This document shows positions 26,748 through 29,741 of a stretch of DNA of 64,000 nucleotides, piece after piece; within the stretch, counting starts at the first letter, position 1, and each line of letters starts with the position of its first letter. The notes under the pieces were generated by a model. It made no database searches. It was given only the letters and a program-made list of their open reading frames with translations, and had not been told where the DNA came from. The DNA is from Flavobacteriaceae bacterium. Its GTDB lineage: Bacteria; Bacteroidota; Bacteroidia; Flavobacteriales; Flavobacteriaceae. The DNA is taken from positions 1 to 64,000 of the forward strand of contig JABSPK010000005.1 of the NCBI GenBank assembly GCA_013214065.1. Reading direction: 5' to 3'. The position numbers were made by a program, and so were the translations under genes.

Positions 26748-27209
26748 TTACATTTTTGTCGCTCTGACCAAGGCCATGATCGATCCTAAATGCAGTCCTT
26801 CATGAAAAACATTGAAGGCCAAGGCATCTTCGACACTGTTCAGGGGTACCTTGGGTGTGGTCATGTAAGGGTTGAAATCGGTGAACAACCCCTTGGCAAA
26901 ATCCGATTCGGTACGCTCGGGCAATTCGAAAAGCAGTTTTTTTACCGTTTCGATTTCGGTGGCGTCGGGGCGCTCCCCAGGGAAGGTCCCTTTTTGGTAT
27001 TTTTCGACCAGTTCCTGCCCGATGTTCAATGGTAGTCCGCTCAACCCATAAACCAATTTTTGCTGGGTGACCACCACATGGGCGATGTTCCACCATATAT
27101 TATTGTTGAATGCTTTCGGCACGGTATACAATGTTTCCTCGGGGAGGTCATTGAGGAATTTGTAAAGGATCTTCCGATTTTGTCGGGTAATGGTAAAGAG
27201 GTTTTCCAT
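26748..27209 (-). CDS. DinB-family (YfiT/DUF664-like) protein
   Basis: 153 residues with a four-helix DinB-like layout. Metal-ligand-type histidines occur at NIAHVVVTQQ and in FNVFHEGLHLGSIMALV near the C-terminus, the three-His pattern of this metalloenzyme-like superfamily. Members include thiol-S-transferases, but most are uncharacterised. It is divergent from the ArsR-type regulator. A perfect inverted repeat in the shared promoter overlaps a TATGTTTT -7-like element at 27221-27228, so it is probably the regulator's target. Confidence 0.85.
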   Translation of the reverse strand: MENLFTITRQNRKILYKFLNDLPEETLYTVPKAFNNNIWWNIAHVVVTQQKLVYGLSGLPLNIGQELVEKYQKGTFPGERPDATEIETVKKLLFELPERTESDFAKGLFTDFNPYMTTPKVPLNSVEDALAFNVFHEGLHLGSIMALVRATKM

Positions 27210-27223
27210 AGGATATCGTTAAA

Positions 27224-27247
27224 ACATATCTATTTTTCTAGATATGT
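27224..27247. promoter_or_regulatory. Operator: perfect 9-bp inverted repeat between dinB-like and arsR-like genes
   Basis: ACATATCTA at 27224-27232 and TAGATATGT at 27239-27247 are separated by six bases. The repeat lies 15 bases before the DinB-family ATG and 26 before the regulator GTG. It overlaps a minus-strand -7-like element, and on the plus strand precedes TATTTTTA (27261-27268). A related palindrome occurs after the regulator gene at 27587. Binding by the adjacent ArsR-type protein is inferred. Confidence 0.7.
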
Positions 27248-27272
27248 AAATATAATTGTTTATTTTTACAAC

Positions 27273-27575
27273 GTGAATATAGTTGAAATCAACAAAGTGT
27301 TGGCCAACGATACCCGGGTGGCCATTTTGAAATGGTTGAAAGAACCCGAGCGCAATTTTCCGCCCCACAAAGACATCGATCATTTTGATGACGGGGTTTG
27401 TGTGGGGTACATCCAAGACAAGGCCGGATTGTCACAATCGACGATCTCAACCTATTTGTTGGCCATGCAGAACGCCGATTTGGTGATACCCACGCGGCAT
27501 GGTAAATGGACCTATTACCGAAGGAATGAAAAGGTCATCAAGGCCTATATTCAAACCCTTCGCGATGAACTGTGA
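27273..27575 (+). CDS. ArsR-type winged-helix transcriptional regulator
   Basis: 100 residues from a GTG at 27273. The frame is open further upstream, but that part overlaps the operator and the DinB gene on the other strand. The winged-helix core is clear: INKVLANDTRVAILKWL at the start, then LSQSTISTYLLAMQNADLVIPTRHGKWTYYRRNEKVI, recognition helix followed by wing. Two Cys or His metal sites of classical ArsR sensors are not evident, and an insertion (PHKDIDHFDDGVCVGY) lies between helices. It probably represses itself and the divergent DinB gene. The inducer is unknown. The GTG start falls 4 bases after a near-consensus -7 box, so the mRNA may be leaderless. Confidence 0.85.
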   Translation: MNIVEINKVLANDTRVAILKWLKEPERNFPPHKDIDHFDDGVCVGYIQDKAGLSQSTISTYLLAMQNADLVIPTRHGKWTYYRRNEKVIKAYIQTLRDEL

Positions 27576-27586
27576 TTTTTTGATAT

Positions 27587-27602
27587 ACATATCTAGATAT
27601 AG
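27587..27602. promoter_or_regulatory. Second operator-like palindrome after the ArsR gene
   Basis: ACATATCTAGATATAG contains the perfect 12-bp palindrome ATATCTAGATAT (27589-27600). The left half repeats the ACATATCTA arm of the 27224 operator exactly, with the two half-sites now fused. It lies 18 bp before a candidate small ORF and about 150 bp before the racemase gene. Confidence 0.55.
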
Positions 27603-27619
27603 CGAAATATAAATGGATT

Positions 27620-27745
27620 ATGGAATGTACAATGGAATGCCGACAGGCAACTGTTTACCAGAGGAGAAGCTACCTTTCAAGGGTTTTGGATTGGTTGGGC
27701 AACCTCAAGATCGAAGGGGCCGAGGGGCTCTCTAAAGTAAAATAA
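27620..27745 (+). CDS. Possible 41-residue ORF coupled to the racemase gene
   Basis: The frame runs from ATG 27620 to TAA 27743-27745, ending 5 bases before the racemase ATG. The last 28 residues (RRSYLSRVLDWLGNLKIEG and a charged tail) have a plausible amphipathic composition. There are several ATG choices at the start, and another frame from 27613 is also open for 40 codons. It could be a gene remnant or a leader peptide. I recognise no family. Confidence 0.3.
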   Translation: MECTMECRQATVYQRRSYLSRVLDWLGNLKIEGAEGLSKVK

Positions 27746-27750
27746 GGACT

Positions 27751-28443
27751 ATGAAGACCATTGGAGTTATCGGAGGCATGAGTTGGCAATCCTCCAAAGT
27801 GTATTATGAATATCTGAACGAATTGGTCGCTGGGCGACTGGGAGGGGCGCATTCCGCCAAGATCTTGATGAGTTCGGTCGATTTTGCCGAAATCGAACGC
27901 TTGACCTTTGAAGATGATTGGGATGCAATCGGCGATTTGATGGCCGAACATGCGCGATTGTTGGAGCGGGCAGGGGCCGATGTGGTCATCTTGGCCACCA
28001 ATACGATCCACTTGGTCAGTCAGGCCATACGGCGGGTTTTGAACGTCCCGTTTCTCCATATCGCCGAGGCCACAGGAGCGGCAATTGCCGAAAAGGGAAT
28101 TGGTAAAATCGCTTTATTGGGCACCCGCTTCACTATGGAAAAGGACTTTTATACCGATATTTTGGAACAGCGCTTCGGTCTAGAGGTATTGATTCCCGAC
28201 CTTGCGGCCCGCGAGCGCTTGCAACACATCATCTATAAAGAACTCGTTACCGGTACGTTTACCGAAGCCGCTAAGCAGGAATGCCTGCTCATGATCGATG
28301 CCCTGATCGCCAAAGGGGCCGAAGGGGTCATTTTAGGATGTACGGAACTTCCTATATTGATTCCTGCCAATGAAGTGGCGATACCATCATTCGATACGAC
28401 CATGATCCATGCCCGATCGGCGGTCGATTTCGCCTTGAAATGA
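27751..28443 (+). CDS. Aspartate/glutamate racemase family protein
   Basis: 230 residues. The fold signature starts at MKTIGVIGGMSWQSSKVYYEYLNE. In the two-Cys racemases the acid/base pair sits in a CNT-type and a GCTE-type motif. Here the first is VILATNTIHLV, with Thr in place of Cys, and the second is VILGCTELPIL with Cys. A Thr/Cys pair is the pattern of the YgeA-like subgroup, reported to act on L-Asp/L-Glu. The substrate is inferred from that. It is downstream of a possible small ORF and an ArsR-type operator, with GGACT just before the ATG. Confidence 0.88.
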   Translation: MKTIGVIGGMSWQSSKVYYEYLNELVAGRLGGAHSAKILMSSVDFAEIERLTFEDDWDAIGDLMAEHARLLERAGADVVILATNTIHLVSQAIRRVLNVPFLHIAEATGAAIAEKGIGKIALLGTRFTMEKDFYTDILEQRFGLEVLIPDLAARERLQHIIYKELVTGTFTEAAKQECLLMIDALIAKGAEGVILGCTELPILIPANEVAIPSFDTTMIHARSAVDFALK

Positions 28444-28497: not shown

Positions 28498-28848
28498 ATG
28501 AAAAAATTATTCCATTTGGAGACCTGTAAGACCTGTCAAAAGATTTTAGCTGTATTGCAACCTTTGGACGGGGTCGAACTGCGAGAGATCAAGTCGAAAG
28601 GGATTACCCCTGATGAATTGCAAGAAATGCGCGACCGTACCGATTCTTACGAATCGTTGTTCAGCAGACGGGCCATGTTGTTTCGACAACGGGGCTTAAA
28701 TGACAAAGTGCTTGATGAGGCGGATTATAAAAACCTGATTTTGGAACACTACACCTTTTTGAAAAGACCGGTGGTCATGGTCGATGATGCCATATTCATC
28801 GGTAATGCGAAAAAGCAGGTCGAAGGGGCGAAGGCCGCATTGCATTGA
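28498..28848 (+). CDS. ArsC/Spx-like thioredoxin-fold protein
   Basis: 116 residues. It has the ArsC-family layout: N-terminal strand followed by HLETCKTCQKIL (CxxC), a central helical region with FSRRAMLFRQRG, and the late conserved LKRPVVMVDDAIFIG near residue 95. The family includes arsenate reductases, YffB/YfgD-type proteins and Spx, and residue patterns do not separate these safely. No arsenic efflux gene is near, so arsenate reduction is uncertain. The stop codon overlaps the start of the EamA transporter (TGATG). Confidence 0.85.
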   Translation: MKKLFHLETCKTCQKILAVLQPLDGVELREIKSKGITPDELQEMRDRTDSYESLFSRRAMLFRQRGLNDKVLDEADYKNLILEHYTFLKRPVVMVDDAIFIGNAKKQVEGAKAALH

Positions 28849-29741
28849 TGGGAAAACGAACACTTGCTTTTTTGGCGGCCATCGGTGCCACGACCATTTA
28901 CGGGATCAATCATACCATCGCGAAGGGCGTGATGCCCGACTACGTTACCCCTTTTGGCTTCATTTTTTTGCGTGTCGTAGGGGCAAGTATCCTGTTCTGG
29001 GCCATTTCGTTCTTAGGACCCAAAGAATCGATTGACAAAAAAGATTGGCCGCGACTGGTACTGGCGGCGCTTTTGGGGATGGTCATCAACATGTTGTCGT
29101 TTTTCAAAGGACTTGAATTATCAACACCCATCAACAGTTCGGTCTTAGTAACGATCAGCCCGATAATCGTGGTCGTCCTTTCGGCCTTTTTCTTGAAAGA
29201 ACGGATTACCCTCAATAAGGGCTTGGGGATATTTTTAGGCTTTGTCGGCGCCTTGGCCCTAATCCTGTTCGGTGCCGAATTGCGTCAAGATGCCCCGAAC
29301 ATCCCCTTGGGTAATACCTTGTTCATTGTCAATGCCACTGCCTATGGGGCCTATTTGATCGTAGCCAAAAGCTTAGTGGCCAAGTACCACCCGTTTACCT
29401 TGATGCGCTGGTTGTTCACCATCGCGATGATCATCAATTTCCCCATTACCTTCGGCGATTTCATGCTGATCGAGTGGGCGACGATGCCGCTTTGGGTTTG
29501 GGGTGTGGTCGTATTCGTGATCATCGGAACCACCTTTTGTACCTACCTGTTCAATATTTTCGCCATGACCGAATTGAAGGCGAGTACGATCGGTGCCTTC
29601 ATCTACATCCAACCCGTCTTCGGCATCCTCTTCGCCTTGCTTACCGGAAAAGACAGTTTGACCGTAACCAAGATATCGGCTACGGTTTTGGTATTGGTCG
29701 GGGTGTATTTGGCTAGTAAAAAGGTGAAACAGCTTGGTTAA
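28848..29741 (+). CDS. EamA/DMT-family transporter
   Basis: 297 residues from the ATG at 28848, which overlaps the previous gene's TGA. About ten hydrophobic helices form two EamA repeats: first half around TIYGINHTIAKGV and STPINSSVLVTISPIIVVVLSAFFLKERITL, second half around STIGAFIYIQPVFGILFALLTGKDSLT. The LKERIT motif after helix four is typical of drug/metabolite transporters. The substrate is unknown. It is probably translated coupled to the ArsC-like gene. The 3' end overlaps the convergent barrel-protein gene by 4 bp (shared TTAA). Confidence 0.9.
   Translation: MGKRTLAFLAAIGATTIYGINHTIAKGVMPDYVTPFGFIFLRVVGASILFWAISFLGPKESIDKKDWPRLVLAALLGMVINMLSFFKGLELSTPINSSVLVTISPIIVVVLSAFFLKERITLNKGLGIFLGFVGALALILFGAELRQDAPNIPLGNTLFIVNATAYGAYLIVAKSLVAKYHPFTLMRWLFTIAMIINFPITFGDFMLIEWATMPLWVWGVVVFVIIGTTFCTYLFNIFAMTELKASTIGAFIYIQPVFGILFALLTGKDSLTVTKISATVLVLVGVYLASKKVKQLG

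Follow-up and report, generated by a model that had tools for sequence, protein, structure and literature searches.

The question raised by this locus is why the gene of a small ArsR-type repressor, in a member of the Flavobacteriaceae, should carry a putative operator behind its coding sequence as well as one in front of it. A first-pass annotation of the window, by which we mean the whole stretch of 64,000 nucleotides that was analysed, had proposed that the gene is bracketed by two versions of one operator, and profile, alignment and conservation data together support this arrangement. The elements concerned are:

27273..27575, + strand: ArsR-type winged-helix repressor gene (arsR), 100 aa, GTG start at 27273, stop at 27573-27575
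27224..27247, strand not assigned: O1, upstream operator, ACATATCTA-TTTTTC-TAGATATGT; putative, with predicted binding
27587..27610, strand not assigned: O2, downstream operator, ACATATCTA-GATATA-GCGAAATAT; 9-6-9, the spacing of O1, with a weaker right arm; putative, with predicted binding

We compared this locus with those of 72 named relatives, a set that was retrieved through short peptide patterns taken from the window protein and whose members are not independent of one another, giving 73 loci, 32 of them flavobacterial (the window and L034-L064) and 41 others. Downstream counts refer to 70 loci (32 and 38), L073, L089 and L097 having been left out for an early stop in the matched frame, and dereplication at <90% arsR identity reduced the 32 flavobacterial loci to 27. 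A site was recorded as found when no more than 5 out of 500 dinucleotide shuffles of its segment equalled or exceeded its score; the arm scoring was written after the relatives had been viewed.

The protein itself carries an ArsR/SmtB domain by its Pfam profile (HTH_5 (ArsR), PF01022; 23.6 bits against a cut-off of 22), and it fell below the NCBIfam cut-offs for metalloregulators (HTH_metalloreg; 50.9 bits, cut-off 55) and, by far, for the SdpR autorepressor subfamily (38.1 bits, cut-off 100). Its AlphaFold2 (AF2) model, with a mean pLDDT of 93.8, has a winged-helix fold, the top solved matches in Foldseek being ArsR 6j05 (the best, TM 0.76), NolR and HlyU, and a profile search with the window ArsR retrieved 29 PDB sequences with HlyU first. 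In this fold, and in an inverted-repeat operator over its own promoter, it resembles ArsR/SmtB repressors such as SmtB, CzrA, ArsR, HlyU and NolR, but it differs from them in its single cysteine, in the absence of the CxC metal or arsenite motif and in the second operator after the gene. Inverted repeats flank arsR, and a homodimer that binds them, as is usual in the ArsR/SmtB family, is predicted here. The classical metal or arsenite site of the ArsR/SmtB family is a CxC-type motif. A CxC-type set of several thiol or histidine metal ligands was looked for in the window protein and was absent, Cys43 in GVCV being the only cysteine, and a classical metal or arsenite site is unlikely because there is no second thiol. 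Cys43 is nearly invariant in a 32-row alignment, with serine in L101. CyeR and RexT, which are redox-sensing members of the ArsR family, likewise have a single or few cysteines near the recognition helix. According to PMC8960804, CyeR precedes an old-yellow-enzyme gene, as do some relatives of the window ArsR (L085); the cargo here is instead a racemase. Because Cys43 is joined by old-yellow-enzyme cargo at L085 (one of ten cargo genes scanned), our guess by analogy is that this ArsR could, like CyeR and RexT, be a sensor of redox state or of electrophiles. An ArsR 73% identical to the window protein was also found at L074, in a record titled as a Pyrinomonadaceae MAG, another phylum, and reflects either a transfer or a misbinned contig.

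The spaced inverted repeat with a six-base gap that had been described before the gene was borne out at 27224-27247, where O1 is a perfect inverted repeat with 9-bp arms. Its general form, ACATATCTA-N6-TAGATATGT, has a single place in the 3.48-Mb genome at up to two mismatches, and places with three mismatches were not above the reversed-pattern control (3 vs 3). O1 lies upstream of arsR in 32/32 flavobacterial loci and in 31 of the 41 others, with the consensus ACATATCTA-tt.TTc-TAGATAT.T-AAATAT in the 27 dereplicated flavobacterial loci. A scan of 299 genomes with CATATCTA-N6-TAGATATRTAAATAT, one mismatch being allowed, returned six places, all six directly upstream of arsR, and the reversed-pattern control gave zero among the matches listed. 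Four of the ten genomes with an arsR of at least 76% identity (G077, G095, G210 and G221) had no match at this one-mismatch stringency, so the exact O1 sequence varies.

The probable promoter box recognised beside O1 faces arsR, and none was recognised facing its divergent neighbour, the features concerned being:

27261..27268, + strand: TATTTTTA, the probable -7 promoter box of arsR, which departs from TAnnTTTG at one base and begins 12 nt upstream of the GTG
26748..27209, - strand: divergent DinB_2-fold gene (Pfam DinB_2)

TAnnTTTG occurs 5-13 bp after O1 in 29 of the 32 flavobacterial loci (2.6 expected), its first T lying exactly 12 nt before the arsR start codon in 28 and 11 nt before it in one; an exact TAnnTTTG upstream of arsR is absent in three of the 32, the window, L035 and L058. 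According to PMC9723704, this box occupies positions -12 to -5, and leaderless mRNAs form 5.5% of the mRNAs measured there. Because the box has this position and starts 12 nt before the start codon, the arsR mRNA is predicted to be leaderless. The first-pass annotation had also placed the promoter of the DinB gene, which here denotes the DinB_2 fold and not the SOS polymerase, over the upstream site, and as stated this did not hold. No TAnnTTTG faces DinB in the 21 DinB-bearing loci, window included, and none runs divergently at O1 in the 32 loci (1.8 expected), counts on which a shared O1/DinB promoter was rejected; furthermore, DinB_2 was found in 20 of the 31 flavobacterial relatives and gave no hit in the other 11, where O1 stays, O1 being present in all 31. 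In the window no more than 14 bp separate O1 from the DinB start codon; an unrecognised DinB promoter would therefore have to overlap O1, and a side effect of ArsR on DinB is possible in the window, though not as a conserved role. DinB is probably a neighbour rather than a conserved target.

Conservation of the repeats in related genomes, a check that the annotation itself had named, extends from O1 to O2, which was found in 30 of the 32 flavobacterial loci (not in L045 and L053) and in 20 of the 38 others, no significant O2 being found in the remaining 18; both operators occur together in 30 flavobacterial loci and 16 others. After dereplication 26 of the 27 flavobacterial loci have O2, L045 being the one without, and the consensus of these 26 sites is aCAtATCgA-.A.tTA-GCGAaATaT-AAATaT. 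The arms carry 1.5-1.8 bits per column and the left flanks 0.36 and 0.64 (27 dereplicated loci), and the fourfold-degenerate positions of arsR are almost saturated, with a mean major frequency of 0.45 across 14 columns. On either side of the window arsR, 0/500 dinucleotide shuffles reached the observed arm score. A degenerate pattern drawn up from the relatives and the window for both kinds of site, ACATATCKA-N6-KMGAWATRT, has exactly two zero-mismatch places in the genome, namely O1 and O2; a wider regulon in this genome was sought with it, and beyond these two there was no zero-mismatch place and one two-mismatch place, within control counts.

The downstream site had been described as a fused palindrome, and the 12-mer ATATCTAGATAT does stand literally at 27589-27600, inside an O2 that runs to 27610, beyond the end at 27602 given earlier. 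The exact 12-mer is nevertheless found downstream of arsR in the window alone (1/70 loci with a usable downstream segment), which rules it out as the conserved element; the element of the relatives is a 9-6-9 site, with which 27587-27610 of the window aligns column by column, and the best gap is 6 in 26.5 of the 32 flavobacterial and 17 of the 38 other downstream segments. In the window the two registers tie on arm score (16.3 at gap -2, 16.2 at gap 6), and the argument for a gap of 6 therefore rests on the relatives. Because these conserve it, we read the window O2 as an ordinary site with a 6-bp gap, whose GATATA spacer would complete a palindrome with the left arm by accident. Thus the palindrome stands as letters but the relatives keep 9-6-9 spacing, and the idea of two half-site spacings is not supported, since the conserved spacing is 6 bp at both O1 and O2. 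The conserved difference between the operators is the sequence of the right arm, TAGATATGT in O1 and GCGAAATAT-like in O2, and the different affinities that had been suggested are likely to arise through arm sequence, not through spacing.

Beyond O2 lie two further genes:

27620..27745, + strand: small ORF, 41 aa, with a conserved C-terminus IEGAE-LSKVK and a mostly Cys-bearing N-terminus
27751..28443, + strand: Asp/Glu-type amino acid racemase, probable cargo (PF01177; TIGR00035 above cut-off)

The small ORF matches no Pfam family. Of 31 loci examined, 29 conserve it, the exceptions being L045 and L053, and most of its variation falls on third codon positions (0.21/0.17/0.47 over the last 14 codons); among 299 genomes it was present in nine, each time directly downstream of arsR. 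It represents an undescribed small protein family with an I-x-GAE-x-MSKTK-like C-terminus, in which the invariance of A and E is partly built in by the filter, which admitted only ORFs of 38-52 aa with a terminal K or R and with GAE or NAE. The ORF at 27613 was ruled out as the small ORF, the conserved frame starting at 27620. The racemase lies within the fetched locus in 31/31 flavobacterial relatives (in L064 behind an SDR gene), and O2, small ORF and racemase recur together. Both observations support the proposal that the regulon extends to the small ORF and the racemase, which are its probable members. L045 and L053 have lost O2 along with most of the small ORF and have kept the racemase. 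An ArsC/Spx-like gene and an EamA exporter follow the racemase in the window (28498-29741), both are present in 28 of the 31 flavobacterial relatives, and the two are perhaps on one transcript.

The explanation that we favour, with a probability of roughly 45%, is an autoregulated ArsR repressor with two operators of the same geometry, of which O1 would stop initiation and O2 would stop RNA polymerase before the cargo. An ArsR dimer would bind both sites; at O1 it would block initiation of the leaderless transcript of arsR, small ORF and racemase, and at O2, inside the transcribed operon, it would act as a roadblock to RNA polymerase that has passed arsR. Leaky transcription would in this way renew the repressor with the cargo kept silent, and an inducer, perhaps a reactive compound meeting Cys43, would release both operators. 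Anatomy and conservation can be read directly from the DNA: the arsR -7 box comes shortly after O1, and O2 stands between the arsR stop and the small ORF. According to PMC6504234, YtgR combines repression with termination of read-through at an operator between trpR and trpBA in Chlamydia trpRBA; this is likewise a site between the first and later genes of an operon, but YtgR is an iron-dependent repressor encoded outside trpRBA, and an alternative promoter exists there. According to PMC6237814, the autoregulator C.Kpn2I obstructs RNA polymerase during elongation of the C.Kpn2I transcript; its site falls within the sequence that encodes it, and the mRNA that is limited there is its own, whereas O2 lies after arsR and would spare it. 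For LacI, roadblocking by a repressor is established, and PMC4132739 reports that Mfd removes stalled polymerase and that a weaker operator lets more polymerase through. The proposed roadblock at O2 would differ from these precedents in that the repressor gene itself stands before the block. Searches of the open-access literature found no paper that describes an ArsR gene with a downstream operator or this locus.

Several observations count against a roadblock. TAnnTTTG is more frequent at O2 than expected (4/30 against 0.4), a hairpin precedes the A/T tract described below in 13 of the 38 non-flavobacterial loci, L045 and L053 keep the racemase without O2, and 18 of the 38 other loci are without a significant O2. 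The roadblock also leaves the A/T tract unexplained:

27575..27581, + strand: ATTTTTT, an A(n)T(m) tract with 5 bp between its end and O2

Defined as A(n)T(m) of at least 6 without a TpA step, with mononucleotide shuffles as control, such a tract ends 5-7 bp before O2 in 30/30 flavobacterial sites (3.8 expected), and among 24 others 15 have one that ends at a distance of 3-10 bp (2.9 expected; nine at 6 bp); the same search at O1 gave 7/32 flavobacterial and 3/35 other loci. O2 and its tract are conserved across phyla. A tract is also present after the arsR stop in the O2-less L045 and L053 and after 24 of 27 CGS stops, and hence need not serve O2 alone; a bend helping ArsR, an UP-like element or a terminator tract are possible roles. 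An intrinsic terminator was ruled out for the flavobacteria, where a hairpin before the tract with z below -2 was found in 0/32 loci, and a U-run release element was weakened as a candidate by several tracts that are A4-6T3-5 rather than T runs. The 13 non-flavobacterial loci with hairpins are mostly Bacilli with a terminator-like stem; in L077, L080-L084, L090 and L091 such a hairpin, with the last arsR codons as its 5' arm, is followed by a T run and then by O2. Since these Bacilli hairpins look like intrinsic terminators, a roadblock would be redundant there and the cargo would need its own promoter.

The chief rival of the roadblock reading is accordingly a second weak promoter at O2, with O2 as its operator, arsR and cargo repressed separately, and the tract as an UP-like element that would make up for the missing -35/-33 element. 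An UP subsite would fall roughly at the position of the tract before O2, and the fixed placement of the tract (30/30) and the hairpin-plus-T-run between arsR and O2 in Bacilli-type loci are both consistent with such a promoter. An exact TAnnTTTG stands at the O2 arm edge in L042, L050 and L055, 13-14 nt before the start of the small ORF (in L034 it is 21 bp on), and an exact TATAAT at O2 in L077, L080 and L085, so that in some loci (L042, L050, L055) O2 may have a promoter. However, TAnnTTTG is absent at 26 of the 30 flavobacterial O2 sites, and in Bacilli-type loci a shuffled flank matches the -10 element at O1 geometry as well as the real O2 flank does (4.51 vs 4.45), a sigma-70 -35/-10 pair with at least 10/12 matches being found at 25/25 O1 and 2/20 O2 in these loci. 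The TAAATAT flank, moreover, also follows O1, whose promoter box is elsewhere, and the small ORF begins between -2 and 26 bp past O2, which often leaves too little room for a start site at O2; in many loci its ATG would precede an O2 transcription start site. We consider a second promoter less likely than the roadblock, with a real chance of being right.

Alternatively, O2 may be an inherited remnant or a decoy, for example a duplicated operator that titrates the repressor with no effect on the cargo. Such an origin would suit an O2 that is weaker than O1 and was lost in L045 and L053, but its arms persist where divergence is saturated, their distance from the A/T tract is fixed, and distant loci with different cargo have an O2 at the corresponding position, which makes this improbable. 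It is also decidedly improbable that ArsR bound at both operators strengthens repression by looping out the DNA that carries arsR: the centre-to-centre distance of 359-368 bp in 30 loci would allow for it and the A/T tract beside O2 could bend the DNA, yet the near-constant distance follows from the constant length of arsR, and ArsR proteins, as a rule, form dimers that lack a tetramer contact. Finally, a downstream site that differs in spacing and affinity as a fused palindrome, for which the 12-mer and the marginally higher window register speak, is very hard to reconcile with a 12-mer that is exact in one of 70 segments and with the conserved gap of 6.

The roadblock reading can be extended to a portable cassette of operator, arsR, A/T tract and operator in Bacteroidota and Bacillota, with O2 as a repressor-dependent polymerase stop and with exchangeable cargo (racemase, SDR, PhzF, exporters, old yellow enzyme), in which arsR would be spared while the cargo is shut off because the repressor gene precedes the stop; as a whole this extension is doubtful. 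Among ten cargo genes scanned in other loci, eight have Pfam families (SDR, EamA, PhzF, luciferase-like monooxygenase, YdcZ twice, old yellow enzyme and MFS) and two have none, and this variety indicates that the cassette travels with different cargo.

For the flavobacteria, the analysis provides a compact and predictable operator pair, a regulator mRNA predicted to be leaderless, and a small protein, not described before, that is linked to an amino acid racemase. If O2 is a roadblock, it would offer a simple and widespread way for a repressor to renew itself without switching on the rest of its operon, and a natural system in which to study the arrest of RNA polymerase by bound repressors in bacteria other than E. 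coli.
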